Below are positions 5,717-25,139 of a stretch of 26,260 nt of DNA, one piece after another. Below the pieces are notes generated by a model that did no database searches, was not told the DNA's origin, and saw only the letters and a list, made by a program, of their open reading frames with translations. The position numbers and the translations under genes were made by a program. The number at the start of each line of letters is the position of its first letter. Position 1 is the first letter of the stretch. The stretch is from a virus, in the IMG/VR virus record IMGVR_UViG_3300021142_001670, positions 1 to 26,260 of that record, one strand, 5' to 3'.

Positions 5717-6849
5717 CCGAGTATTACAATCAACTGTGTGCCGAGTGGGCCTTCACACCCACTCAGGATGTCTGCACCGGCTATGAATCTGTGGAAAAGG
5801 ATCTAAGACGATTAACCAAACAGTCTTGGGATCAGCAAAATGAATCAGGCCGACAAGCAATTGAAAATGCTGCTTTTGACATATATCGAAGTGTAGGCAT
5901 ATTGCCCATAGAGTATTACACCCTAGAAGGCTTTCGGCATGCCACTAGAGATCTGTCTCGTATAAACAAAGCAGTGGTTGATGGTAAACTTGGTGGCGGA
6001 GGTCCAGGACAAAACTTGTCGCGTTTTTGGTTTCCCAACATGCAGGATGCGGCTTGGAATACCAATGACACTGTGAGTTTAAAAAGCAGATTCTGGCATG
6101 ATGCCAAGCTACGACGTGCTATCAAGATCTGTTACAAGTTTCGTGACAACGGCAACAAGGCGGTTTTCCCCAACTATCTTAGAACTGCGCTCGAGCTGGT
6201 GAATGGCGGAACCATACAAAACTTCAAGGTCATGAACGCTAGAGCCATTTGGGAACATATTTGTCCTACACTGTTTGGTGATTTGTTAGATTTTAGTTCC
6301 GGTTATGGTGGACGCATGATGGGTGCCATGACCAGTAGAATGCAGTACAACTATACTGGAATAGATCCCAATACCAAAACTTTTGCAGGTCTGCAAGCAC
6401 TAGGTGAATTGATTGCAGGCGAGGGCATGAGTTCGGGATTTACCATGCACAACACAGTAAGTGAAGAATTTGATCCTGACCCGGGTCGTTATGATGCTGC
6501 TTTTTCAAGTCCGCCCTATTTCAATCTTGAACGCTATTGCGACGAGCCCACACAATGCATGAACCGGTATAAAGAATTGGATTCATGGTTTGAGGGTTAT
6601 GTGACTCCTACCATTCGAATGTTGCACCGTGCCCTGTCCGCAGATGGAATATATGCGGTCAACATTGCCGACTATCGACATGGTAAGAACTCTTTTGTCA
6701 TTGTCGAACCCTGGATTGAGTTAAGTGAAAAGTTGGGATTTAGGCATGTGGAAACTGTGCACATGATATTGCCAGTGCGACCCGGAGTTGGCAATAATAG
6801 ACTGGAAAAAACGCACAAGGCTGAAGGAATTTATATATTCAAAAAGTAA
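5710..6849 (+). CDS. DNA N4/N6-type methyltransferase (SPPY class)
   Basis: The SAM-binding motif LLDFSSGYGGRMMGAM lies at about 191-206, followed by YTGIDPN with the acidic residue that binds the SAM ribose. The catalytic motif IV SSPPYF is at about 266-271. SPPY is typical of N4-cytosine and some N6-adenine DNA methyltransferases. Motif I precedes motif IV. The N-terminal ~190 residues are unassigned and may recognise the target. At 379 residues it is complete. It closes the ParB-like/GIY-YIG operon. The likely role is phage DNA modification, to resist host restriction or to mark DNA for the partner proteins; the site is unknown. Confidence 0.8.
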   Translation: MVTEYYNQLCAEWAFTPTQDVCTGYESVEKDLRRLTKQSWDQQNESGRQAIENAAFDIYRSVGILPIEYYTLEGFRHATRDLSRINKAVVDGKLGGGGPGQNLSRFWFPNMQDAAWNTNDTVSLKSRFWHDAKLRRAIKICYKFRDNGNKAVFPNYLRTALELVNGGTIQNFKVMNARAIWEHICPTLFGDLLDFSSGYGGRMMGAMTSRMQYNYTGIDPNTKTFAGLQALGELIAGEGMSSGFTMHNTVSEEFDPDPGRYDAAFSSPPYFNLERYCDEPTQCMNRYKELDSWFEGYVTPTIRMLHRALSADGIYAVNIADYRHGKNSFVIVEPWIELSEKLGFRHVETVHMILPVRPGVGNNRLEKTHKAEGIYIFKK

Positions 6850-6868
6850 TACTCTAGTACTAGTTTTT

Positions 6869-6921
6869 GTTGCAGTTTTACAACGCCCGTTTTTGCTCAG
6901 AAATGGGCGTTCTGCTATAAT
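6869..6921 (+). promoter_or_regulatory. Class II-like promoter with upstream inverted repeat (copy 1 of 3)
   Basis: GTTG-N8-CAAC (6869-6884), 8 nt, then the weak -35 TTGCTC (6893-6898), a 17-nt spacer beginning AGAAATGG, extended TGC, and TATAAT (6916-6921). The same layout recurs at 9726 and 11462. A second inverted repeat, AACGCCC (6882-6888) / GGGCGTT (6905-6911), spans the -35 region and is specific to this copy. It drives the ten-gene small cluster starting at 6951. Confidence 0.75.
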
Positions 6922-6950
6922 AAGATATAGTGAAAAACAAGGAGTTGAAA

Positions 6951-7217
6951 ATGACGACAGAAACTTATGCTCGTTTAAGCGAGAAAGAAAAGCAAGAAGT
7001 GCGTATGTATGGTGTCACAGAAGCCGGCATGCGTGAAGCAGTTGAATCTAGCATTACTTTTAAGTTTAGTGGCCCTGCAATGGTAGTAGCCAGTTACCTA
7101 AGTGATGCACAAGAAATGATGGCATACGAGCAACCTGACTTTAACACTATCGAAGATCAGCGTCAGTTACTGAATCGTGCTAAGTGGGTATTGTTTGAAT
7201 ACATAATGAAGGAGTAA
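6951..7217 (+). CDS. Small conserved phage protein, 88 aa
   Basis: The ATG at 6951 is preferred over an in-frame GTG at 6930, because a strong AAGGAG lies just upstream of the ATG and the GTG would sit in the promoter's initial transcribed region. The sequence is helical: LSEKEKQEVRMYG, TEAGMREAVESSITFKFSGP, AMVVASYLSDAQEMM, RQLLNRAKWVLFEYIM. It looks like a small early protein of T4-like phages; no catalytic motif is visible. It is the first gene behind the copy-1 promoter, so likely the most expressed of this cluster. Confidence 0.75.
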   Translation: MTTETYARLSEKEKQEVRMYGVTEAGMREAVESSITFKFSGPAMVVASYLSDAQEMMAYEQPDFNTIEDQRQLLNRAKWVLFEYIMKE

Positions 7218-7220
7218 ATT

Positions 7221-7415
7221 ATGACAATGGTTGTTGCAAAATTTAAGAATAGGTGGGTTCATGTTGTTAAATTTGCCACAACTGTCGGTTTCAGCGATGA
7301 AAAGAACTGGTTCATGGTTAACTTTGACTTTGAAAAGCCCTTTCGCAAGAGAGAGCAATTTAGGTGGGTTCCCGCTAGTACTAAATTTGATGCCGTAAGA
7401 GAGTTTGTCGCATGA
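7221..7415 (+). CDS. Small hypothetical protein, 64 aa
   Basis: Not recognised. It has a clear AAGGAG ribosome binding site overlapping the end of the previous gene. The protein is basic and aromatic-rich (NRWVHVVKFATT, EKNWFMVNFDFEKPF), suggesting a small beta-rich fold. Its stop overlaps the start of the next gene by 4 nt. The context is a dense row of small, probably early phage genes, many of which act on host proteins in other phages; nothing here identifies a target. Confidence 0.65.
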   Translation: MTMVVAKFKNRWVHVVKFATTVGFSDEKNWFMVNFDFEKPFRKREQFRWVPASTKFDAVREFVA

Positions 7416-7711
7416 AAATAATAAAGTTAAATCGTAGATACCAGGCATTCAAGGAGTATGGGCACACTTATGCCTTTAGGTTTGACACTTGGAATCGAGA
7501 ATCTGGTCGTGTGGAAAATATAATGAAGACCGTATTGGGTAGCCAATACACCACGACAAGTGGCGATGTCGTTGCTCGTTTTCGTGACTGGCGAGGAACA
7601 TTTGGTAGAAGGCCCAATATCAATCTGCCAAGACCTTATATGATATCTTTTCGAGATGAAAGTGTAATAAGTTTAGTATTATTAAAAATGGAAATGAATG
7701 ACAATGTTTAA
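7412..7711 (+). CDS. Small phage protein, 99 aa, member of a local paralogous family
   Basis: It starts MKIIKLNRRYQAFKEYG, followed by AFRFDT and, at the C-terminus, ISFRDESVISLVLLKME. The product of the gene at 9040 shows the same plan (MKxIK, FDT, then LRDEAEVTLMLLTLE), and the 8464 product ends similarly (FRDPRDAVWFSLKF). These look like copies of one small family within 2 kb. Function unknown. It overlaps neighbours at both ends (4 and 14 nt), so it is part of one polycistronic message. Confidence 0.7.
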   Translation: MKIIKLNRRYQAFKEYGHTYAFRFDTWNRESGRVENIMKTVLGSQYTTTSGDVVARFRDWRGTFGRRPNINLPRPYMISFRDESVISLVLLKMEMNDNV

Positions 7712-7928
7712 AGTGTATTGGACCGAGGATTTTGACAAGCCGTATAGTACGACCTTGGACGACTTATCCTCGGCGTTACGGGCCTGCGAGACGTTAAGAA
7801 AGCGAGGCTTCAGGTTTGTGACCATGGTGAGTGAAGATACCGGCAATATCGGCAAGCCCGGCGTTGACAGTGTGGAGAATGGGCGCACCACTGATGGTGT
7901 AGAGTATAGTTGGACCAAACGGAGATAA
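7698..7928 (+). CDS. Conserved small phage protein, 76 aa
   Basis: It reads MTMFKVYWTEDFDKPYS at the start, then ALRACETLRKRGFRFVTMVS and GVDSVENGRTTDGVEYSW near the end. I recall similar short proteins, with FVTMVSE followed by GVDxVE and a basic C-terminus, in many T4-like environmental phages, without assigned function. An alpha/beta fold is likely. ATG at 7698 or 7704 could serve as start; both overlap the upstream gene's end. The next gene starts 2 nt after its stop. Confidence 0.75.
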   Translation: MTMFKVYWTEDFDKPYSTTLDDLSSALRACETLRKRGFRFVTMVSEDTGNIGKPGVDSVENGRTTDGVEYSWTKRR

Positions 7929-7930
7929 CG

Positions 7931-8302
7931 ATGAATTTGACCGAACACAGTGACCTTAAAATACAAGCAACATTCGACCAGTGGGAAGTGGATGGAGAAT
8001 ACGCTCAAATTATGTATAACTACCTGGTGTATGGATTCAATCCTGGCAGTTTTTTTACCAGTGTACTGGCCAATGACTTTGTGGGTGCTATGAGTCACAG
8101 TCATCCCGGCAAATCTATTTCAGCACTGAAACGGCTAGTGGGTTGGATGCGGGACTACATGCCCGCAACGGCCTGGGGCAGTTATGCGGCAGTAAACGCC
8201 TGGGTGGATTCGGATGCAAGTCAGCGTAGACAGATTTTAGAAGAACAGAAATTAATTTTTACCGAACGAGAAGAAACTTGGAAGGTGCTTAATGATGCAT
8301 GA
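7931..8302 (+). CDS. Conserved phage hypothetical protein, 123 aa
   Basis: The frame opens at 7910, but the ATG at 7931 has GGAG seven bases upstream and avoids overlap, so it is preferred. A distinctive central stretch is YGFNPGSFFTSVLANDFVGA then MSHSHPGKSISALKRLVGWM, followed by AWGSYAAVNAW. This pattern is familiar from cyanophage and related T4-like genomes, where it is annotated hypothetical. It appears soluble and mostly helical. The next gene overlaps its stop. Confidence 0.75.
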   Translation: MNLTEHSDLKIQATFDQWEVDGEYAQIMYNYLVYGFNPGSFFTSVLANDFVGAMSHSHPGKSISALKRLVGWMRDYMPATAWGSYAAVNAWVDSDASQRRQILEEQKLIFTEREETWKVLNDA

Positions 8303-9315: not shown

Positions 9316-9734
9316 TGTTATATTTTGCATATGGTATGAATACCAATCGAGAAGGCATGCGAGGCATGTGCCCACAGTCTCGTAGAATGGGGGTGGCCAA
9401 ATTGCTGGATTGTAGTTTTAGATTTGCTGGATGTGCCGACATCATACTTGACGAAACTGCTTATGTTGATGGTTTGTTATGGGATATCACTGACGACTGT
9501 TTGTTGCATTTAGATTGCTTAGAAGGATACCCGCACTTCTATGACCGTGGTATCTTTCAAGTTGAATTTAACGGAGAGATACTAGATGCCATGAGTTATT
9601 TTATGACTCCGGGTCACGAAACAAGAAATCCCAGTTCAGGTTATCTCAATACTGTGGTAACTGGATATAGGGAAAATGGCATCCCTATGGACCAAATATA
9701 CAATGCTCTGCTAGTCCCAGAACTTGTTGCATAA
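9312..9734 (+). CDS. Gamma-glutamylcyclotransferase-like (AIG2/GGCT fold) protein
   Basis: The N-terminal LYFAYGMNTN matches the glycine-rich YGSN-type loop of the gamma-glutamylcyclotransferase family, and HLDCLEGYPHFYDR supplies the catalytic Glu (about residue 71) in its usual setting. At 140 residues it is a complete single-domain member. Known members convert gamma-glutamyl amines or peptides to 5-oxoproline plus the free amine or amino acid. In phages the substrate is unknown; glutathione-related peptides or gamma-glutamylated DNA or protein adducts are candidates. It ends the small-gene cluster; its last codons form part of the next promoter's upstream palindrome. Confidence 0.8.
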   Translation: MMLYFAYGMNTNREGMRGMCPQSRRMGVAKLLDCSFRFAGCADIILDETAYVDGLLWDITDDCLLHLDCLEGYPHFYDRGIFQVEFNGEILDAMSYFMTPGHETRNPSSGYLNTVVTGYRENGIPMDQIYNALLVPELVA

Positions 9735-9778
9735 AAACAACACCCGGATTTGTCCAGAAATGGCAATTTTGCTATAAT
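9726..9778 (+). promoter_or_regulatory. Class II-like promoter with upstream inverted repeat (copy 2 of 3)
   Basis: GTTG-N8-CAAC (9726-9741), 8 nt, weak -35 TTGTCC (9750-9755), 17-nt spacer beginning AGAAATGG, extended TGC, TATAAT (9773-9778). The upstream repeat overlaps the stop codon of the cyclotransferase gene. The leader ends in AAGGAGTTGA just before the ATG at 9809, nearly identical to copy 1. Confidence 0.8.
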
Positions 9779-9808
9779 ATGAGTATAGTAACAAACAAGG
9801 AGTTGATA

Positions 9809-10021
9809 ATGATTCAAGATTACGGAATGTTTACACCCGAAGGTAATGCTGCAGTTCACGGTATTGTTTTGCTGAGTCGCGTACACAAAGAGAACTGGCT
9901 TTGCACGTGGCAAGCTCTAGTCAACTTGGCCAAGGAGCCTGGCTTTGAAGAAGCCACAGACACCATGGTTCGTGAAATAGTTTACGACGCTTGCCGATTT
10001 ACAACAGATTTTTATGTCTAA
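9809..10021 (+). CDS. Small hypothetical protein, 70 aa
   Basis: The ATG at 9809 has a strong AAGGAG upstream; an in-frame ATG at 9779 overlaps the -10 box and is rejected. The protein is helical, with LLSRVHKENWLCTWQALVNL and FEEATDTMVREIVYDACRF. Not recognised. It is a single-gene unit between the copy-2 promoter and the MoxR promoter. Confidence 0.65.
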   Translation: MIQDYGMFTPEGNAAVHGIVLLSRVHKENWLCTWQALVNLAKEPGFEEATDTMVREIVYDACRFTTDFYV

Positions 10022-10022
10022 T

Positions 10023-10051
10023 TTGACACAAAATGACAATCGTTATATAAT
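10023..10051 (+). promoter_or_regulatory. Strong sigma70-type promoter for the MoxR-type ATPase
   Basis: TTGACA at 10023-10028, 17-nt spacer, TATAAT at 10046-10051. Spacer positions 4-7 are AATG as in the other promoters. There is no GTTG-N8-CAAC element and no extended -10. The -35 begins 2 nt after the upstream stop; AGGAG precedes the ATG at 10074. Confidence 0.85.
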
Positions 10052-10073
10052 ACATTTTTAACCAGGAGTTTTT

Positions 10074-11174
10074 ATGTCAGTATCCGAAAATCGTACCGTT
10101 ACCCCCAACGAAGCACGTAGCCGATTACTTCGTGCTTTTAAAGCCAAACGTCCAGTATTCCTTTGGGGTCCTCCTGGCATTGGTAAAAGTCAAATCATTG
10201 CAGATTTGACCAAAGAACTGGGCGGTATCACAATTGACTTGCGACTGGGTCAAATGGAGCCCACAGACTTGCGCGGTATTCCTTTTTACAACAAGGACTT
10301 GGGCAAGATGGACTGGGCCGAGCCAATTGATCTTCCAACAAAAGAAATGGCCGAACAGTATCCTATTATCACTCTGTTCTTGGACGAGATGAATCAGGCT
10401 GCTCCAGCAGTACAAGGTTCAGCATTTCAGCTGGTACTTGATCGCAGATTAGGCAAGTATCAGTTGCCAGACAATGTGGTAATTGTTGCAGCCGGTAACA
10501 GAGAAAGCGACAAAGGTGTCAGTTTCCGTATGCCAACTCCGCTGGCAAATAGATTTGTTCACTTGGAAGTGCGCAGTGATTACGATAGTTGGGTTGAGTG
10601 GGCGGTCAAGCATCGTGTACACAAAGACGTGGTGGGTTTTATTGGCTTCTCTAAAGATAGTCTAATGGACTTTAATCCACGCAGTGCAAGTCGTGCATTC
10701 GCTACTCCAAGATCCTGGAGTTTTGTAAGCGAATTCTTGTACGACGAGGATGCAACCGATGCAGAACTGAGCGACTTGATTGCTGGTACTGTGGGAGATG
10801 GCATGGGCGTCAAGTTCATGGCACACCGCAAAGTTGCTGGACAGATGCCCAACCCTACTGACATCTTGGCCGGTAGAGTAAATGAACTCAAGATCAAAGA
10901 AGTCAGCGCCATGTACAGTTTGATTGTGAGCATGTGTTATGAGTTACAAGATGCTCATGCCAAACTAAAGACTGCCAAGATTGCAGACTGGCATGCCATG
11001 GCTGATAACTTCTTCCGCTTTGCTATGGACAATTTCAGCACTGAGTTAGTGGTTATGGGTGCACGAGTTGCGTTAACAACTTATGGCTTACCGTTGGTGC
11101 CCGGTAAACTCAAGAACTTTGATGAGTTCCACAAGCGTTTTGGCAAATACATTATCGCAGCCGGTGGCAAGTAA
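10074..11174 (+). CDS. MoxR-type AAA+ ATPase
   Basis: Walker A GPPGIGKS lies at residues 32-39 and Walker B LFLDEMNQ at about 101-108. VIVAAGNRESDKG is a sensor-1-type segment, followed by RMPTPLANRFVHLEV, the usual MoxR arginine region. At 366 residues it is complete. MoxR ATPases act as chaperones or unfoldases with a VWA-domain partner; a metallopeptidase-like VWA protein is encoded just downstream (11537), with only a terminator, a lipoprotein gene and a second promoter between them. Such pairs occur in T4-like phages, where their target is not known. It has its own strong promoter and terminator, which allow separate control from the VWA gene. Confidence 0.9.
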   Translation: MSVSENRTVTPNEARSRLLRAFKAKRPVFLWGPPGIGKSQIIADLTKELGGITIDLRLGQMEPTDLRGIPFYNKDLGKMDWAEPIDLPTKEMAEQYPIITLFLDEMNQAAPAVQGSAFQLVLDRRLGKYQLPDNVVIVAAGNRESDKGVSFRMPTPLANRFVHLEVRSDYDSWVEWAVKHRVHKDVVGFIGFSKDSLMDFNPRSASRAFATPRSWSFVSEFLYDEDATDAELSDLIAGTVGDGMGVKFMAHRKVAGQMPNPTDILAGRVNELKIKEVSAMYSLIVSMCYELQDAHAKLKTAKIADWHAMADNFFRFAMDNFSTELVVMGARVALTTYGLPLVPGKLKNFDEFHKRFGKYIIAAGGK

Positions 11175-16877: not shown

Positions 16878-17842
16878 GATATCTTGTAACTGGCGGGGCG
16901 GGCTTTATAGGACACAATGTAGTACGTTCCTTAGAACAAATGGGCTACGAATGCATCATAATGGACAGTATCACTGACTATGGATTTGTCAATAAAGAAG
17001 AATTAGATTACTTAAAAAGAGAACGCAATCGGCGTATTAGAGCCGGAATCCATCATGTGGATTTACGAGATCATGCGGGTGTAAAAGGTGTTATAGGCAG
17101 TTTTGACTTTGCTGGAGTTGTGCACCTTGCCAGTTTCCCTAGGCAAAAAGTATTTGCAAAAAATCCCATTTGGGGAGCAGATGTTATGGGCACTGGGTTA
17201 ATTAATCTATTAGAATGGACCAAAGACTATAAAATACCCAAGTTTGTTTATGTTAGTAGCAGTATGGTGTATGGCGACTTTCAAGATGGTGTTCGAGAAA
17301 CTGCCGAATGCCGTCCTGCAGGGCAGTATGGTATTATGAAATATATGGGAGAAAAACTTGTTGAAGATTATGCTCGTCGTGGCGCTTTTGATCACGTTAT
17401 CATACGGCCCTCTGCTGTATATGGTGAATATGATGTCGAAGATAGAGTAGTGTCAAAGTTCATGCTTGCAGCAATGCGTGACCAAACAATCACAGTGCGT
17501 GGGGCAAACGAATCATTAGACTTTACTCATGTAGATGATGTTGCACAGGGCATTGCATTGGCTGCTAGCAAAACAGAAGCTAATGGTAATACGTACAACA
17601 TGACGCGATGTGCTAGTAAACAGATTACCTTGTTAGATGCAGCTGCACTATGTATCAAGATTGTGGGCCGGGGCAAGATAGACATACAAGACAAAGATCC
17701 GCACTTTCCCAGTAGAGGCCGATTAAATATCGATCGGGCACGACAGGAACTTGGATACGACCCTAAAATAAACATCAAAGAAGGCTTTAAACGTTATCAC
17801 AAATGGTTTCGAGAGAGTGTATATTGGCAACAAAAATTATAA
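16874..17842 (+). CDS. NAD(P)-dependent nucleotide-sugar epimerase/dehydratase (extended SDR)
   Basis: The Rossmann motif TGGAGFIGHN is at residues 6-15. Catalytic elements follow in order: FAGVVHLAS, VYVSSSMVYGD (catalytic Ser region) and the YxxxK pair in QYGIMKY (Tyr152, Lys156), then IIRPSAVYGEYD, a substrate-binding loop. The length of 322 residues is typical of UDP-glucose 4-epimerase and dTDP-glucose dehydratase relatives. It probably makes or isomerises an activated sugar. The DegT-type aminotransferase downstream (2-nt gap) suggests an amino-sugar pathway for phage or host surface glycan. Confidence 0.9.
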   Translation: MRYLVTGGAGFIGHNVVRSLEQMGYECIIMDSITDYGFVNKEELDYLKRERNRRIRAGIHHVDLRDHAGVKGVIGSFDFAGVVHLASFPRQKVFAKNPIWGADVMGTGLINLLEWTKDYKIPKFVYVSSSMVYGDFQDGVRETAECRPAGQYGIMKYMGEKLVEDYARRGAFDHVIIRPSAVYGEYDVEDRVVSKFMLAAMRDQTITVRGANESLDFTHVDDVAQGIALAASKTEANGNTYNMTRCASKQITLLDAAALCIKIVGRGKIDIQDKDPHFPSRGRLNIDRARQELGYDPKINIKEGFKRYHKWFRESVYWQQKL

Positions 17843-17844
17843 AG

Positions 17845-18942
17845 ATGTATGGCGTTGATCGCCAATACCAAAACTTAAAACAGGAAGTACTGGACATAAC
17901 CGACACTGTGTTAAGTACCGGACGAGTTTTGGACGGAGATTATACCACAAAATTTGAACTTGAAATAGCTCATCGATTAAATCGCAATTATGCCATAACA
18001 GTCAATAGTGCCACTACCGGCTTGGTTTTTGCACTAAAATGTTTATTTTCCGGCGAAAAATCAGGTCTTTTAATACCCGCAGTTAGTTATATTGCTACCA
18101 TGAACTCTGCGATACTGTCCAAGTATGCAAATATACAAATCTGTGATGTAGACCCAAGTGGGTTAATGGACTTGGGACGAGCCGACCAAGCAATGGGATC
18201 TGAGATTCAAACTGTTATGTACGTTAATCTTTTTGGTAACACTGTGGACTGGGACCGTTTTAAAATAATGACTCAATTTTTTGGCAGTGAACAGGTTAGA
18301 GTTATTGAAGATGCAGCGCAGAGTTTTGGTGCCAGTTTTAATGGAGTTCCTTCGGGCAAGATGGGCGATGTCAGTGTACTGAGTTTTGATCCCACAAAGA
18401 ACTTGAACAACTTTGGTTCGGGCGGCATGATACTAACTGATGATATCACAGTATACGAGTTAATTAAAAATTTACGCGACAATGGCAAACATACCGGACA
18501 CGAGATGCCAGGCATTAACAGCAAAATGAGCGAAGTCGACTGTGCCATTATGACCATGAAACTCAAACACTTTGATAAATGGCAAGCACGTCGTACTGAA
18601 ATTGCCGATTACTACACACGGGAACTACAAGGATTGGTTGAAGTTCCAGTGGCTACTCCGGGTACCACGCATGCTTGGAGCAAGTATGTTATACGTGTGC
18701 CCAATAGAATGCAGTTAAAGAAACATCTGGATTATAATGATATAGAATCCAAACCAACATACACTCGTGCATTGTATGAGGAGTTTGTGGGCAGGAGTTA
18801 TGCCCCGGGTGGCCCAACAGGCGATGATGGGTGGGAATGTCATAGATTTACTCGGGAATGTTTGTCACTGCCAATCTACCCCGAGTTATACGATAGCGAA
18901 GTTGAACGAGTAGTTAGGACTATTCGAGAGTACTTCCGTTAA
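17845..18942 (+). CDS. DegT/DnrJ/EryC1/StrS-family PLP aminotransferase
   Basis: The start at 17845 follows the epimerase stop by 2 nt; an earlier in-frame ATG-less start at 17803 would overlap it by 40 nt. Family motifs: VNSATTGLVFALK (phosphate site), LIPAVSYIATMNSAI, VIEDAAQSFGA (Asp stacking on PLP) and LSFDPTKNLNNFGSGGM with the Schiff-base Lys185. It transfers an amino group from glutamate to a keto-sugar nucleotide, most likely the product of the neighbouring epimerase/dehydratase. At 365 residues it is complete. Its 3' end overlaps the convergent Bug-protein gene by 23 nt. Confidence 0.9.
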   Translation: MYGVDRQYQNLKQEVLDITDTVLSTGRVLDGDYTTKFELEIAHRLNRNYAITVNSATTGLVFALKCLFSGEKSGLLIPAVSYIATMNSAILSKYANIQICDVDPSGLMDLGRADQAMGSEIQTVMYVNLFGNTVDWDRFKIMTQFFGSEQVRVIEDAAQSFGASFNGVPSGKMGDVSVLSFDPTKNLNNFGSGGMILTDDITVYELIKNLRDNGKHTGHEMPGINSKMSEVDCAIMTMKLKHFDKWQARRTEIADYYTRELQGLVEVPVATPGTTHAWSKYVIRVPNRMQLKKHLDYNDIESKPTYTRALYEEFVGRSYAPGGPTGDDGWECHRFTRECLSLPIYPELYDSEVERVVRTIREYFR

Positions 18943-19873
18943 TGCCAACATTGATATTTAATTTTTTAATTAATAATCTGTATCGTTCGGCATCATCGTT
19001 TAGATCTAATTCAGAAGCATTCCATTTTTTATAATTCTTTACCGCAATAGATTCTTTAACGTTTTCAGTATTAAACGCGGAATTCAATGCATTACGTAGA
19101 ATTAGTTGTATATCATGTGGAACCGATTTATCAATGTAAAAGGCAGCACCTGTTTTTGGGCCATTGATATTTGTTTTTTTGCCAACAAATTCATCCAGTG
19201 TTGGTACATCAGGATAGTCAGCATCTCTGTGTTGCGATGCTATTGCTAAAAATTTAATTTTTCCTGCTTTTTCCAATGCTTTCCCGGAGGCCAAGGTTAC
19301 AAAACTAAAAGACAATTGTTTATTTGATACGTCTATTAACCAAGTACTGTATTCCTTGTACGGAATATGTGTAGCGTCAATTCCTAAATATTGTGCAAAC
19401 TGCGAACTAAAAATATGTCCAGTTGAGCCTATGGCCCAAGACCCATAATACGGATGTTTTTTGATCAGATCTTGTAATTCTTGTATATTCTTTATATCAG
19501 TTGATGATATCAACATCAAATCACTTGATGTTGATGCAGTCAATACTGTTAGATTTTTAATCAACTCTGATTTTCCGTATACCAATGGATAGGCATTGAT
19601 CACTGTGGGATCAGTGAAATAAATAGAGTATCCATCTGCTACACGATTTTTGTATTCTTGTAACGATACTGATCCGTTGCCACCCGGTCGATTCTCCAAT
19701 ACAACTGGAACTTTTAATATTTCTTCTAGAGATTGAGTTAATGCTCTTGTATAACTATCTGGACCCGATCCTACAGGAAATGAAGTAATTATTGTTATTG
19801 TAGATGATGGAAAATCTTTAGCAAATAGCAATGTGCTTGTTGCAATCAATAAACAGATTAAAATTTTTTTCAC
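18920..19873 (-). CDS. Bug/TctC-family periplasmic solute-binding protein
   Basis: MKKILICLLIATSTLLFAKD is a clear signal peptide with cleavage expected after Ala18. The mature protein has the Bug (tripartite tricarboxylate transporter) pattern: ITIITSFPVGSGPDSYTRAL, VVLENRPGGNGSVSLQEY (binding loop), VADGYSIYF, and GSTGHIFSSQF then THIPYKEYSTW, where the family reads YKG. At 317 residues it is full length. Family members bind small carboxylates in the periplasm for TctAB permeases, none of which is encoded here, so host permeases would be needed. It overlaps the ANL gene by 4 nt. AT-rich and unusual in a phage. Confidence 0.88.
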   Translation of the reverse strand: MKKILICLLIATSTLLFAKDFPSSTITIITSFPVGSGPDSYTRALTQSLEEILKVPVVLENRPGGNGSVSLQEYKNRVADGYSIYFTDPTVINAYPLVYGKSELIKNLTVLTASTSSDLMLISSTDIKNIQELQDLIKKHPYYGSWAIGSTGHIFSSQFAQYLGIDATHIPYKEYSTWLIDVSNKQLSFSFVTLASGKALEKAGKIKFLAIASQHRDADYPDVPTLDEFVGKKTNINGPKTGAAFYIDKSVPHDIQLILRNALNSAFNTENVKESIAVKNYKKWNASELDLNDDAERYRLLIKKLNINVGINGSTLE

Positions 19874-21339
19874 TGGAGTTCCTTTAATTTGCTTCTACAA
19901 TATTCTCTAATTTTATTGTAATCTAATTTTCTACTGGCAAAATAAATTTCTTTATTTTGATCTTGCATGACATAATTTATACCAACATTTGTATACGATT
20001 CTTTAAAATACTTATTTAATAACAGTTCAGCATCATTGTTTTCTCTCCAAATTGCTAGATAAATTTTTTCATTTTCTGCATCAATTACCAAATTGGCGTC
20101 AGCACCGAAGTATTTGGTAATTTTACTTTCAATCTCAGATTGGTCAACCCATTCTTCATTTATTCTATATTTGTTACTACGTCCTCTAAAATAGTAATCG
20201 CCATTGATTACATCAAATTTGTCATTGCTGGTTTTCCAGTCTTCTCCCAATTCAGGAATATTGATATGTAATTTTCCTTCAATAACTGCTATACCAAATT
20301 TGTCATCAAGTGGTTTTCCTTGATTCGCGACATCGTATGTTGTTAAATCAGTGTATCGATCAACATGTTTTAAAAAAAATCCCTGCCCGATTGTGGTATC
20401 ACCAAACAATGATTTAATAAATTGAATATTTTTATCTTTGACCAATTTGGCTGATTCTAATGTGATGTTAAACAACGTGTTGATTTTGACTGTGTGGGTA
20501 ACACGTGGAGTATTTGTCAAATAATCTTCTAGCATTTGTTGTGTATATAAAAATAAATTATTAATTTTATTTTCTTGTATAAATTTTATTTGATTAGGCG
20601 GGGTTATATCTGTATATGTAAACTGCTCTTTGCTATTCATAAACGCTGGCAAGAAATGATATGCAATGGAAGCGCCGTGATGCATATTTCTAGTGTGCAA
20701 AACTTTATTATCGGATTCAAAGTTTAATAATCTTGCCATTCGTTCAGCCATGAAATAAACTTTGCGATGACTGTTTATAATTTTCTTTGGGTTTCCTGTA
20801 GTGCCACTACTGGCCGAGTATAGGAAAATTGATTCTGGCGTGGCATCAATTTGATTTTTCATTTGTTCATACAACAAATTACTTTTGATTTTATATCTAT
20901 CGCAGTCTTCTTGAAAAATAATATTATCGGATAATTTTTTATTTCTTTGAATATCCCAATATGCATACATTTTAGAATTTGGATCATAGTAGGATTCTTG
21001 TGTAATTATATAATCAATTTTTCCGTGTATATTCATGTTGTAACTGTGCAGGTCGGATTCTGCATAGGCTCTTGGTAAGTCCACTATTAGAATTAATCCC
21101 AACTCAAGAGCAGCAAATAACACCGAGTAGTAATATATGTTGGGCCCACAATTGAGTAAAATTGTTTGACCTTTTGTTACATTATATTTTTCAACCAGCA
21201 TGGTTTTCCAAAAATTAATCATCTCACACAACTCTGAATGATTGTAGGTATTTTTATATTCTTGTGTATTATTGTCGTGATTGTATATTAGTATATCGGT
21301 ATTAATACAATGTCTAGTTATTATATTTTTATATTGCAT
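19870..21339 (-). CDS. Adenylate-forming (ANL/AMP-binding) enzyme
   Basis: The start ATG at 21339 gives an 11-nt overlap with the upstream stop; a longer frame back to 21438 would overlap 110 nt. Motifs from the 489-residue product: the ATP-binding P-loop YSASSGTTGNPKKI (174-187), FGDTTIGQG (about 312-320, A5-like), and YFRGRSNKYRINEEWVDQSE (about 383-402), the hinge of the C-terminal domain. A late FASRKLDYNKIREY offers the catalytic Lys region, though not the standard PxTxxGK. ANL enzymes activate a carboxylate as acyl-AMP, then usually as a thioester. Downstream lies a Bug carboxylate-binding protein. The substrate is unknown. Sequence is very AT-rich. Confidence 0.85.
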   Translation of the reverse strand: MQYKNIITRHCINTDILIYNHDNNTQEYKNTYNHSELCEMINFWKTMLVEKYNVTKGQTILLNCGPNIYYYSVLFAALELGLILIVDLPRAYAESDLHSYNMNIHGKIDYIITQESYYDPNSKMYAYWDIQRNKKLSDNIIFQEDCDRYKIKSNLLYEQMKNQIDATPESIFLYSASSGTTGNPKKIINSHRKVYFMAERMARLLNFESDNKVLHTRNMHHGASIAYHFLPAFMNSKEQFTYTDITPPNQIKFIQENKINNLFLYTQQMLEDYLTNTPRVTHTVKINTLFNITLESAKLVKDKNIQFIKSLFGDTTIGQGFFLKHVDRYTDLTTYDVANQGKPLDDKFGIAVIEGKLHINIPELGEDWKTSNDKFDVINGDYYFRGRSNKYRINEEWVDQSEIESKITKYFGADANLVIDAENEKIYLAIWRENNDAELLLNKYFKESYTNVGINYVMQDQNKEIYFASRKLDYNKIREYCRSKLKELQ

Positions 21340-23959
21340 TTTTAAATCTTTCTTGTAGCCACTGCCACTCAAATGATAGTTTGAGTTGCTCATAATCCCC
21401 ACCCACTTCATCGTAATACGCAACCGCATCACGAGCACCCGCTAGGCAATATTCTGCATATTTTCCCTCAGCACAAGTGCACCACACATCAAGTCTATGT
21501 GTGTTTTCCACTGTGGGTGCCGTGGCATCAAAGTGTTTCAACTTTATTACTTCACGGAATGCAGTACGCCATGTCATCCAAGGATCCTGGTTAAAATGTG
21601 CTGTTCCAGACAATATTGGCACCGATTCGTGTGGTTGTGATAGCGTAAAGTCTATTCCCGGACTGTTATTTTCCAACACAAGTCGTTTGTTGTATGCTAT
21701 TACACCTTGGTGTCCATACTCTAAATCATTAACAGGATTACGTGCATTAAAGATATAGTGCTTGGGCTCTTGCCAATAGTCCGGCATCCATTCTCGCCAA
21801 GGGAAATGAACATCAACTTCTATTTTGGCAAATACTGCAAAGAACCACGGGGTAGTACTTGCTCTAGCAGCTGCTTGGTAAGCAGCAGTGCGCCCATTGA
21901 CTCCACGTATCCATTTTATGTCACTACCGGTGTTATTAGACAAATAGCATAGCGTATCGTACCACTTCTCCTCATCGGGTTCGCCGTTACTGATATAGAC
22001 AATATCTATCCCAGTAATGGTTTTATTGTTGTAATATTCGTTTATGTGATAATATTTGTCTAGATAAGGATAATCGTACAATTGTGTTTTTAAATATTGT
22101 TTAACATCTCTAGGAACTATACAAGTTGCCCCCGACCTAGTTGCTCGCACTACAGTGCGATCCTTTTTGCTCCACAAGCAATTGGATGAGGTCAAACTCA
22201 AATCGGGTTGGTTAGTAAATACCGCATAAGGAGTTTTAAAATCATAGTTTTTAATCTCGGTGATTAAATCATCACCTTGATAATAATGTACGGGTGTAGG
22301 ATATCGTTCAACTGTTGGGTGGTCAACATAATTAATAACATTGAACCAATCCAACAACTCAAGTTCAACCATTTGTTTTCGAAAAGATTCAACATGTATA
22401 TAAAATGTATCACCGCGTTTTTGCCCATTGCTGGACCAGCAATGTATCATTTCCCGTTGCCAGGGCTCGGGTTCCCAGGTAAAATCAAAAATTGTATATT
22501 TGCATAAACTGCTTATAACCCAAACTGATTCAGTTTCGGCTGTGTTTGCAATGCGTTTTAAAACATCTAAATATTCACCTACAAAACGTGTTCGTATGAT
22601 GTCTCGACTTTTTATATTTCTTAACCAATCTAGATTTTCTTCGCTTTTGGGATTGTTATGATCGATATAATAGATATCGGCAGTGGGATTGGTTTTTACC
22701 ACCGATTGATTTGTTACAAAGTTTAAATTGGGAAATTCTTCTAAACTTTTTGCCCAGGTGCTGTGTCGATCAAATTCGTAACGATTTATTAAAAATGTAT
22801 CGCTCCATTTATTGTGCTGGCTGGGAAACACATGAGTCATAAACTGTTGCCAAGGTTCAGCGTGCCAATAAAAATCAAATTCTTCATAACTGTATTCGCT
22901 GCTGACAATCCAAAATTTAGCAGTGGTTGTTCTATTGGCACAACGCCGTATTGTGTCAAATAACGTGTTGGCATATCTTACTCGTGTTACTTTATGATTT
23001 TTATTAAGATATTCAAATCTGGCTTCGCTGGTAGAATTGCCTTTGTCAATGAAAAATATATCAAGTTCAGTTAATGCAGTTTGTTCGCCTATCACCGGAA
23101 TAGGTCCTGCAAATTTAATTTCTGTTGCACCCGGCACAGTGTAGGTAAGCCCAACACTGGCTTGATACTCAGTACCAAAGTGATATATGTAAGGTGGATC
23201 TTTGGGGTGTGGTACCCAAGAAAAATCTACAGAAGACTGATCTACTTCTTCGGGCACTGTCCAATTGGTCAAGTCTACCACGGTATCAGCATGTTGTTCG
23301 GTCATGTACTTTTCTTTTACCGCACCGGGCACGTTATACTCGGGACCGCCTTCATTGTTCCATTTAGTAGGAAATTTGTATATGTACGGTTCTTCTCGCG
23401 GATGCGGCGTCCAAGAAAAGTCAAAACTATCACGGTCTATATTTGTCGGTACATGCCAATTGGTCATGTCCACTCGTGTGGTTGTTACAAAGTCATATAG
23501 ATATTTGTCGCCTTCGGCTCCGGGCACTCGGTATACTGGACCACCAACATTTTCCCAATTCCATTTTACCGGAAAATGATAATTCAGCGGAGGATCTAGT
23601 GTGTTTGGGCTCCAGCGCCAATCAATACTGTTGGGATCTATGTAGTCGGGTATATCCCAATATTCTTTTACAGGCAGTCGATGCACTGCTGGGCCTGGCA
23701 TAAAGTGTAAACAGTTGTTGGCATTGTTTGTTAAATAAACATTACCGTTTATTTGATGTTGATCCGGCCAAACGTGTGTGTATTGACTTTGCCATGGTAA
23801 TGGCATGTAATCAAAATCAAATCCAGTGTAATCATTACCACCATAAATAAACCAGTAATACTCGGTTCTGCTCTGTCGATGAGCATCCGCCAAGTTCCGA
23901 GCAGGGCGCTCAAACGCAAACAAATTTGGTTTTGGTCCCGAATAAAAAACATCAAACAT
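21329..23959 (-). CDS. Very large modular repeat protein, 876 aa, possibly glycosyltransferase-like
   Basis: The ATG at 23959 is preferred to the in-frame TTG at 23971. Module A (about 95 residues: IFFIDKGN..., WIVSS, FDFxWxxEPWQxxMxH, DTF) occurs at about 1-85, 298-396 and 427-525, with a diverged form at about 650-770 that contains TPWFFAVFAKIEVD. Module B (about 60 residues: VDFSWVPHPKDPPYIYHF, then a VPGA turn) occurs three times at 100-286. I recall similar Trp/Pro-rich repeats in large environmental phage proteins, sometimes labelled glycosyltransferase-like; no DxD motif is certain. It leads the minus operon with ANL and Bug genes. A structural or glycan-modifying role is possible. Confidence 0.75.
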   Translation of the reverse strand: MFDVFYSGPKPNLFAFERPARNLADAHRQSRTEYYWFIYGGNDYTGFDFDYMPLPWQSQYTHVWPDQHQINGNVYLTNNANNCLHFMPGPAVHRLPVKEYWDIPDYIDPNSIDWRWSPNTLDPPLNYHFPVKWNWENVGGPVYRVPGAEGDKYLYDFVTTTRVDMTNWHVPTNIDRDSFDFSWTPHPREEPYIYKFPTKWNNEGGPEYNVPGAVKEKYMTEQHADTVVDLTNWTVPEEVDQSSVDFSWVPHPKDPPYIYHFGTEYQASVGLTYTVPGATEIKFAGPIPVIGEQTALTELDIFFIDKGNSTSEARFEYLNKNHKVTRVRYANTLFDTIRRCANRTTTAKFWIVSSEYSYEEFDFYWHAEPWQQFMTHVFPSQHNKWSDTFLINRYEFDRHSTWAKSLEEFPNLNFVTNQSVVKTNPTADIYYIDHNNPKSEENLDWLRNIKSRDIIRTRFVGEYLDVLKRIANTAETESVWVISSLCKYTIFDFTWEPEPWQREMIHCWSSNGQKRGDTFYIHVESFRKQMVELELLDWFNVINYVDHPTVERYPTPVHYYQGDDLITEIKNYDFKTPYAVFTNQPDLSLTSSNCLWSKKDRTVVRATRSGATCIVPRDVKQYLKTQLYDYPYLDKYYHINEYYNNKTITGIDIVYISNGEPDEEKWYDTLCYLSNNTGSDIKWIRGVNGRTAAYQAAARASTTPWFFAVFAKIEVDVHFPWREWMPDYWQEPKHYIFNARNPVNDLEYGHQGVIAYNKRLVLENNSPGIDFTLSQPHESVPILSGTAHFNQDPWMTWRTAFREVIKLKHFDATAPTVENTHRLDVWCTCAEGKYAEYCLAGARDAVAYYDEVGGDYEQLKLSFEWQWLQERFKNAI
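23102..23662 (-). repeat. Three tandem ~60-residue Trp/Pro repeats within the large modular gene
   Basis: Each unit encodes a Trp-x-Val/Ile-Pro opening, Asp-x-x-Ser-Phe/Val/Ile-Asp, a FSWxPHPxxxPYIYxF core and a GGP/GLTY-xVPGA closing turn (residues 100-165, 168-230 and 232-286). The copies are recognisable as protein but diverged in DNA, so they are old duplications and not recombination hot spots. Confidence 0.8.
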
Positions 23960-25139
23960 GTACAATCTCAACAGTCATTACGAAAATATTTTTCATTATT
24001 TAAACAATATTATAACAGATCCCAGGATGCTTTACCTAATGCCTTATGGGTCAACTCGTCCAGAAAACATAGAACCATTGATGGAATACCGACTGGGTTT
24101 TTGGCCCGGCAATCGAGGGCCGTTATTTTTATTTTATGATCAAGAACCCATACTAGGCGAATTTAATTTTGAGTTATTGGATTATGTATGCAACAATTAT
24201 ATGCAAGGTCAAGATTTTATTTTGGTCACAACCGAAAAAAATAGTGAAACTCTTGATCTAGTTCGCACCAGGTATAAATGTTCCGTAGTTTATTATTTTC
24301 ATCATGTGTTTGCGACACACGATTGGTTTAGGGGTATTCAATTCGATGCAAGATTAATTGCACCCAATCAAAGAAAACTCAAAAAGAAATTTATCTCATT
24401 TAATCGATTGACAAGTAATCTTAGAGTGTATCGTAGTTTATTTATCAGTGAATTAATAAAGAGAAATATACTAGACCAGGGCTACGTAAGTTACAGTGAT
24501 GTTTGTCCAGACAACAATCAGCATTATACAAAAAATCTTGCAGATGCAGTTGATAAAAAATTAATCAATGAAGCGGTTGCTGCTGAAGCCATTGCCAATA
24601 TCAACCACGCCGCGTTGCCGCTACGAATTGATTATTTAGAACAACAATTTATACCTAACAGCAGTTTTGTATTGAGTGCAGTAAAAGAATCACAAGCAAG
24701 TTTTATATATGTTGTAACAGAAACTTGTTATTGGGAACGCAAATGTCATTTGACTGAAAAGATATTTAAACCCATTGTTAGTAGAATGCCATTTATACTT
24801 GTTGGGCCTGCACATAATTTAGCGTACCTACGCAGTTATGGATTTCGAACATTTGATAAATGGATTAACGAAAGTTATGACACTATAGAAGATCCTATTG
24901 CACGTATGAGCATGATTGGGGACGTATTATCAGATTTATGTACATTGAGTTTATATGAACTAGAATGTATGTTAACAGAAATGCAAGAAGTCTTAGACCA
25001 TAACTACAATTTATTTTATAGTCAATCGTTTATTGATCGTTGTTGGCGTGAGTTAACTCTTGGACTTGCTGACGTTTGTAAACAAAGCCCAGTTGTTCCA
25101 GGATTACAGGAAGCCATTTATCAGAATCTTGGGTACTGA
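23958..25139 (+). CDS. Putative glycosyltransferase, 393 aa
   Basis: The C-terminal third contains VVTETCYWERKCHLTEKIFK then PIVSRMPFILVGPAHNLAYL and RSYGFRTFDKWINESYD. A Thr-Glu-Lys-x-Phe/Trp-Lys-Pro-Ile core followed by PFILxG is typical of GT-B-type glycosyltransferases of the fucosyltransferase/exostosin kind and recurs in phage glycan clusters. The N-terminal half (PLFLFYDQEPILGEF, YYFHHVFATHDWF) would be the acceptor domain. Its start codon shares the palindrome CATG with the divergent large gene, and its 3' end overlaps the convergent kinase gene by 110 nt. No ribosome binding site is visible. Donor and acceptor are unknown. Confidence 0.7.
   Translation: MYNLNSHYENIFHYLNNIITDPRMLYLMPYGSTRPENIEPLMEYRLGFWPGNRGPLFLFYDQEPILGEFNFELLDYVCNNYMQGQDFILVTTEKNSETLDLVRTRYKCSVVYYFHHVFATHDWFRGIQFDARLIAPNQRKLKKKFISFNRLTSNLRVYRSLFISELIKRNILDQGYVSYSDVCPDNNQHYTKNLADAVDKKLINEAVAAEAIANINHAALPLRIDYLEQQFIPNSSFVLSAVKESQASFIYVVTETCYWERKCHLTEKIFKPIVSRMPFILVGPAHNLAYLRSYGFRTFDKWINESYDTIEDPIARMSMIGDVLSDLCTLSLYELECMLTEMQEVLDHNYNLFYSQSFIDRCWRELTLGLADVCKQSPVVPGLQEAIYQNLGY
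24009..24017 (-). promoter_or_regulatory. Possible extended -10 promoter for the minus-strand cargo operon
   Basis: Read on the minus strand, TGTTATAAT is an extended -10 (TGN plus TATAAT, box at 24014-24009), about 50 nt before the ATG at 23959. No matching -35 is present at 17 nt. It lies inside the start of the divergent plus-strand gene. It lacks the AATG spacer motif of the other phage promoters, so it is tentative. Confidence 0.35.

Follow-up and report, generated by a model that had tools for sequence, protein, structure and literature searches.

A recurrent pairing of a Bug-type binding protein with an adenylate-forming enzyme in jumbo phages suggests viral capture and activation of aromatic acids

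The IMG/VR virus record IMGVR_UViG_3300021142_001670, a linear 26-kb sequence analysed over its whole 26,260 nt (hereafter the window), carries two overlapping genes, one for an adenylate-forming enzyme of the ANL superfamily and one for a periplasmic solute-binding protein of the Bug/TctC family. We found that this pair is a real, recurrent phage auxiliary module, apparently undescribed before; its carriers are, judged by their genes, jumbo phages related to Pseudomonas phage PA5oct, and their hosts are probably Burkholderiales-like betaproteobacteria. We favour, with reasonable but incomplete confidence, a role as an auxiliary metabolic module for uptake and ATP-dependent activation of an aromatic carboxylate in those hosts, which suggests that viruses carrying the pair help infected hosts to consume these acids or put them to use. 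An initial annotation of the window had proposed carboxylate uptake coupled to ATP activation. Every computational check that we ran is consistent with this proposal, the evidence being recurrence of the pair in both gene orders, a second type of ANL, a hydrophobic protein that replaces Bug in one phage and an oxygenase that joins the pair in others. The kinship with PA5oct, the likely aromatic class of the ligand and a wider pattern of Bug proteins beside ATP-dependent enzymes go beyond that annotation.

The genes are tightly packed, in the minus-strand order 880-amino-acid phage protein, ANL, Bug (Table 1). The start of the ANL gene overlaps the 880-amino-acid gene by 11 nt; its stop shares the sequence GTGA with the Bug start, downstream of an AAGGA ribosome-site-like motif; and the Bug gene runs tail to tail into a DegT aminotransferase gene with an overlap of 23 nt. 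The ANL frame stays open as far upstream as position 21438; because homologues begin at the ATG at 21339, the start also taken in the initial annotation, we assign the enzyme 489 residues.

The Bug protein is full length, as first annotated: the Pfam TctC model matched it at 3e-31 (109 bits against a curated cut-off of 27), covering 264 residues and profile positions 3–273 of 274. Its AlphaFold model (predicted local distance difference test score, pLDDT, 89) has the two-lobe Bug fold, aligning to the structures of Rpa4515, TBP, TphC and Bug27 with Z scores of 29–31.5 over 281–289 residues. The N-terminus, MKKILICLLIATSTLLFA, has the n/h/c pattern of a signal peptide when read by eye; the 14 aligned viral Bugs also start with a hydrophobic N-terminus, and we infer export to the periplasm. 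Loops of the predicted binding site, aligned to the ligand contacts of Bug27, are either conserved or substituted. Pocket residue Trp146 takes the place of Bug27 Cys136, which docking puts against the pyridine ring of quinolinate (PMC11452294); it is invariant in 14 of 14 viral Bugs and in all seven Bugs of their sister clade, and replaced in most other Bugs. Trp178, found in 14 of 14 viral Bugs, is specific to the viral clade: all seven sister-clade proteins have Leu there.

The partner enzyme matched Pfam AMP-binding at 1.2e-12 (47.7 bits; cut-off 29.9), and its predicted structure (pLDDT 83.5) aligned to ANL structures with a Z score of about 31. The P-loop, YSASSGTTGNPKK, with SGTTGNPK, is intact, bearing out the earlier reading of an AMP-binding enzyme; also retained are the HHG motif, the A7 Asp, the A8 Arg and the C-terminal Lys (Asp391, Arg405 and Lys489 in a 507-residue numbering). 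The Pfam AMP-binding_C model does not recognize its divergent C-terminal domain, and the enzyme scored 21 bits against the specific benz_CoA_lig family, whose cut-off is 375. Neither the window ANL nor the window Bug had a match in PHROGs, and the phage ANLs are, in sequence terms, a divergent family of their own.

Table 1. Positions of the gene pair, its residues and flanks in the window, and of related genes on other phage contigs
Feature	Contig	Position	Strand	Basis or remark
Bug/TctC-family periplasmic solute-binding protein, 317 aa	window	18920-19873	minus	GTG start
ANL adenylate-forming enzyme, 489 aa	window	19870-21339	minus	ATG start
ANL stop/Bug start overlap, GTGA, 4 nt	window	19870-19873	minus	sequence; same -4 overlap in most relatives
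Signal-peptide-like N-terminus of Bug	window	19820-19873	minus	n/h/c pattern read by eye
Trp146 of Bug, pocket position	window	19436-19438	minus	Cys136 of Bug27 by alignment
Trp178 of Bug	window	19340-19342	minus	invariant in viral clade only
ANL P-loop motif, YSASSGTTGNPKK	window	20782-20820	minus	
Putative catalytic Lys of ANL (A10 motif)	window	19927-19929	minus	invariant in eight aligned viral ANLs, seen in wider set
880-aa conserved phage protein, upstream flank	window	21329-23971	minus	
DegT aminotransferase, convergent flank	window	17803-18942	plus	Pfam 1.6e-68
ATPase	window	10074-11174		
PP-loop gene	L139	4812-5999		
PP-loop gene	L140	4806-5999		
PP-loop gene	L143	6936-8042		
PP-loop gene	L005	6785-7990		
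PP-loop gene	L023	6790-7989		
PP-loop gene	L146	6921-8096		
PP-loop gene	L172	3188-4330		
PP-loop gene	L174	3444-4592		
PP-loop gene	L175			
Bug + ~205-aa protein	L170	4623-6209		
Bug + ~205-aa protein	L173	4114-5763		
Bug + ~205-aa protein	L175	4196-5784		

Whether the pair recurs in phages had been posed as a check on the initial proposal, and it does so in many lineages. Profile scans of IMG/VR returned 21 and then 42 loci with the Bug profile and 12 with the ANL profile. Defining a lineage as a cluster of Bugs at 90% amino-acid identity, the window included, we found Bug relatives in 22 distinct phage lineages, 17 of which have an adjoining ANL gene (12 ANL-first and five Bug-first), mostly with a 4-nt overlap. 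Since only one of these 17 (L029) was found solely via the ANL scan, the association was not produced by the search. On three contigs (L135, L136 and L150, counted as two lineages), the ANL beside Bug is an unrelated, canonical enzyme nearest to anthranilate- and benzoate-CoA ligases, matching anthranilate-CoA ligase 4wv3 at 1.4e-45 and both the AMP-binding and AMP-binding_C models; the L135 and L136 enzymes scored about 200 against the benzoate/anthranilate-CoA-ligase family, below its cut-off. In L032, a 447-residue hydrophobic protein (6658-8001) stands in place of Bug, preceding the ANL with a 4-nt overlap; its symporter-like look is unproven, because it had no Pfam match even at an E-value of 1 and only a weak match to a PHROG of unknown function. 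Across seven contigs totalling 1.45 Mb, several of which were picked for containing the pair, a Bug gene was present no more than 700 nt from every one of the seven ANL genes, against an expected 0.31, and the generic AMP-binding model found no ANL in these contigs away from a Bug. In L119 (4484-8395), a Bug gene lies between two different ANL genes.

The pair is lodged among bona fide phage genes. The window ATPase is 48% identical to that of PA5oct and its kin, and shares 64–66% identity with genes from contigs on which relatives of the pair occur. The flanking genes (880-amino-acid protein, DegT, epimerase, thymidylate synthase and dihydrofolate reductase) are syntenic in about ten related phage contigs of up to 354 kb that have no Bug or ANL; the DegT is 86% identical in two such contigs (L176 and L185), and relatives of the 880-amino-acid protein (53–67% identical) adjoin DegT without the pair on 13 phage contigs. 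Because the flanks are conserved with and without it, the pair is an insert in a cargo site, in line with its initial annotation as phage cargo, and the slot is empty in relatives. Most other cassettes, including those of L032 and L119, sit between gp47 and gp46, which directly touch in PA5oct and XaC1; L001, L021 and the window have other sites, and the insertion sites number at least three. We reject a host fragment or assembly chimera on the strength of the conserved flanks and the empty sites, and the tight gene packing also argues against a chimera. That the two genes are passengers, random host cargo in tolerant sites with no selected joint function, would fit the varied cargo of the gp47/gp46 and window slots; it is nonetheless very improbable given the repeated pairing in both orders, the independent ANL type, the several insertion sites, motifs kept across divergent sequences (35–40% identity) and an adjacency far above chance.

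The 880-amino-acid protein itself, which has relatives in L176–L188 and reaches 1404 residues in L178, contains internal repeats and has no Pfam or PHROG match; the cargo genes at the 3' end of its gene vary between phages. In L001, genes for Hsp20 and ClpS (Pfam; 21-476 and 1032-1403) lie directly upstream of the Bug–ANL pair.

Three lines of evidence bear on the ligand. First, in three lineages (L015/L017, L029 and L131) Bug is followed by the alpha and beta subunits of a Rieske oxygenase with intact [2Fe-2S] and mononuclear iron motifs; they matched anthranilate 1,2-dioxygenase AndAc/AndAd best, below curated cut-offs, and identity of the alpha subunit to a Burkholderiales gene reaches 69%. 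Bacterial homologues (~60% identity) adjoin a gene for gentisate 1,2-dioxygenase, matched above cut-off, together with genes for a fumarylpyruvate-hydrolase-like protein, an isomerase of the maiA family and a Rieske ferredoxin, an arrangement that we take to be a nag-type salicylate 5-hydroxylase/gentisate cluster. Second, the viral Bugs form one clade (Shimodaira–Hasegawa-like approximate likelihood ratio test, SH-aLRT, 100) whose sister is a group of seven Burkholderiales Bugs, answering the question of which host clade they branch with; two of the seven lie in a cluster with gentisate dioxygenase, fumarylpyruvate-hydrolase-like, isomerase and FAD-monooxygenase genes, and another is beside PobA, a 4-hydroxybenzoate 3-monooxygenase. 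Third, Trp146 is shared with this sister clade. Together, these indirect lines point to hydroxybenzoate-like aromatic acids, and a small aromatic carboxylate of the hydroxybenzoate/salicylate kind is most likely the ligand.

Pyridine carboxylates such as quinolinate and nicotinate, scavenged for NAD in the manner of Bug27 and Bug69, are an improbable alternative. Among PDB sequences, the viral Bug profile matched Bug27 best (1e-46), quinolinate is bound by Bug27 at 136 nM and by Bug69 at 70 nM (PMC11452294), and jumbo phages carry NAD genes (PMC7824862). Bug27 nevertheless falls in a different part of the tree, its Cys136 and Thr22 are Trp and Pro in the viral Bugs, and we saw no linkage to nadC or nadQ. 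Nor do we know of any role for an ANL enzyme in NAD synthesis.

The absence of a TctA gene near the pair, already remarked on in the initial annotation, extends to 12 phage contigs, including ones of 337, 320 and 374 kb, that gave no PF01970 match (TctB was not searched); a host permease would therefore be needed. Bugs without their own TctAB are the rule in Bordetella, where 76 Bugs face two tctAB sets (PMC5812351). In the mechanism that we propose, the phage Bug would be secreted to the periplasm, bind a small aromatic carboxylate and deliver it to a permease of the host, either its own TctAB or a different one; the co-translated ANL would adenylate the acid with ATP and transfer the acyl group to CoA or another acceptor; and in some phages the Rieske oxygenase would then, or alternatively, hydroxylate the acid, feeding host ring-cleavage pathways. 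At its simplest, the phage would replace or supplement the periplasmic receptor that serves a shared host permease, and would also provide the first cytoplasmic enzyme. The missing TctA would also suit a Bug that acts as a periplasmic decoy, sensor or superinfection-exclusion factor, with the ANL coincidental, and phages do make exported exclusion proteins. We regard this as highly unlikely: the binding-loop motifs are conserved, the neighbours are metabolic, and the apparently membrane-embedded protein that replaces Bug in L032 is what uptake would predict.

Several Bug-related observations stand beside these. Three large contigs, G016 (337 kb), G017 (320 kb) and G018 (374 kb), each hold three to five distinct Bug/TctC genes, a multiplicity reminiscent of the expanded Bug family in Burkholderiales. 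L144 has, among structural genes, a Bug and what by eye is a TRAP-type (tripartite ATP-independent periplasmic) DctP-like binding protein (5953-6942 and 9630-10646). A Bug match in the gut 'phage' MT836965 (24% identity) was set aside; it lies outside the viral clade, beside TctB/TctA-looking genes.

A number of points weigh against the interpretation that the pair serves aromatic-acid uptake and activation. The initial annotation had made the case depend on key ANL residues, and the retained motifs listed above are countered by the A5 position, where the canonical Glu is Thr (GDTT) in the ANL clade of the window; the position is acidic in the ANLs of L006, L001, L016, L147, L138 and L032. A scan of 300 Burkholderiales genomes yielded no close relative of the ANL, only generic matches (best 5e-14), so that its substrate is not readable from homology; an alignment-based genome scan for a bacterial source likewise gave no relative, and aromatic-acid families are only among the best of many generic ANL matches. 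With its A5 Thr and no bacterial counterpart found, the ANL is, as far as sequence can tell, the weak point of the proposed mechanism. Moreover, a Rieske gene is absent from the window, the host assignment derives from gene phylogeny and not from CRISPR or isolation, and the acids bound across the Bug family are diverse, with amino acids and pyridine carboxylates among them.

Adenylation may not be confined to ANL enzymes. Other Bugs in the same phages, some from separate Bug clades, lie beside PP-loop proteins of ~370–400 residues with an SGGxDS motif, often with a 4-nt overlap; in L139 and L140 the order is Bug, PP-loop, Bug. In the seven contigs above, nine of ten PP-loop genes have a Bug no more than 700 nt away, where random placement gives a mean of 0.44; this count was made with a profile built from Bug-adjacent members. 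An ANL or PP-loop neighbour lies within that distance for 15 of the 18 Bugs, some of these neighbours not being co-oriented. The PP-loop protein had no homologue in the PDB. Tentatively, and with more doubt than we attach to the pair itself, these arrangements could reflect a general jumbo-phage strategy in which every orphan Bug has a dedicated ATP-dependent adenylating partner, either an ANL or a PP-loop enzyme, to scavenge specific environmental acids that would be attached or channelled as activated adenylates, entering through the host's shared TctAB; such a strategy, if real, has no described viral counterpart.

If the PP-loop pattern holds, the shared principle is an acid binder plus an adenylating enzyme, and this keeps alive an explanation in which the imported, adenylated acid is not catabolized and instead becomes a building block, ligated to molecules of the phage or the host (bases of DNA or RNA, nucleotides, sugars of the surface or amines). 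The PP-loop class, which includes AMP-forming ligases and is unrelated to ANL, would make adenylation, not CoA catabolism, the common denominator, and the ANL lacks a recognizable canonical C-terminal domain. We think such use rather unlikely, as the Rieske oxygenase and the ANLs that resemble benzoate/anthranilate-CoA ligases point to catabolism of the ring, no gene for an acceptor or acyl carrier accompanies the cassettes consistently, and adenylation by the PP-loop proteins is read from their motif only.

Further genes occur near these cassettes. A third conserved Bug pairing, with a ~205-residue protein (MKYIFVAGAPGSKWSSVV...), occupies an orthologous site in three jumbo contigs. Binding-protein-like open reading frames without an obvious signal peptide lie near Bug and PP-loop genes (L175:1869-2852, L172:5420-6367 and L175:10219-11178), and one resembles, by eye only, proteins of the 4,5-dihydroxyphthalate decarboxylase type.

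Known systems resemble the module in parts. Its Bug shares with the orphan TctC/Bug proteins Bug27, BugD, TphC, TBP and AdpC/Rpa4515 the fold, Pfam family, signal-like N-terminus, binding-loop motifs and lack of a linked TctAB; it differs from them in being phage-encoded, in its coupling to an adenylate-forming enzyme, in its viral-clade Trp178 and in a Trp146 held in common with one hydroxybenzoate-linked bacterial clade. The ANL has the P-loop, A4/A7/A8 motifs, C-terminal Lys and predicted fold of its superfamily (benzoate/anthranilate-CoA ligases, EntE/PchD-type aryl-AMP ligases and the A domains of nonribosomal peptide synthetases), from which its divergence, the A5 Thr of the main clade and its Pfam-unrecognized C-terminal domain set it apart. 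The Rieske pair, beside Bug in three related phage lineages, resembles salicylate 5-hydroxylase (NagGH) and anthranilate 1,2-dioxygenase (AndAcAd) types, and its bacterial homologues sit in gentisate clusters; it has no reductase and ferredoxin beside it. Cyanophage PstS, also a periplasmic binding protein carried by a phage, would likewise depend on a permease of the host; the phage Bug differs from it in family and substrate class and in being encoded together with an activating enzyme.

In the literature that could be searched, which left out most subscription papers and preprints, we found no report of a phage Bug/TctC with an ANL, the nearest published case being a TctA domain match in SUP05 phage contigs (PMC4164917). 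The parts thus belong to known families, TctC/Bug and ANL, and their combination in phages is new within that literature. Photosynthesis, phosphate and nucleotides are the best-known fields of phage auxiliary genes; if our interpretation is true, phages of betaproteobacteria would extend these to capturing and activating organic acids, probably aromatic ones of plant or humic origin. The divergent phage ANL family would gain a testable function, and the orphan Bugs of Burkholderiales a new handle: as each phage copy has a dedicated enzyme, what the Bug binds could be cross-checked against what the enzyme activates.

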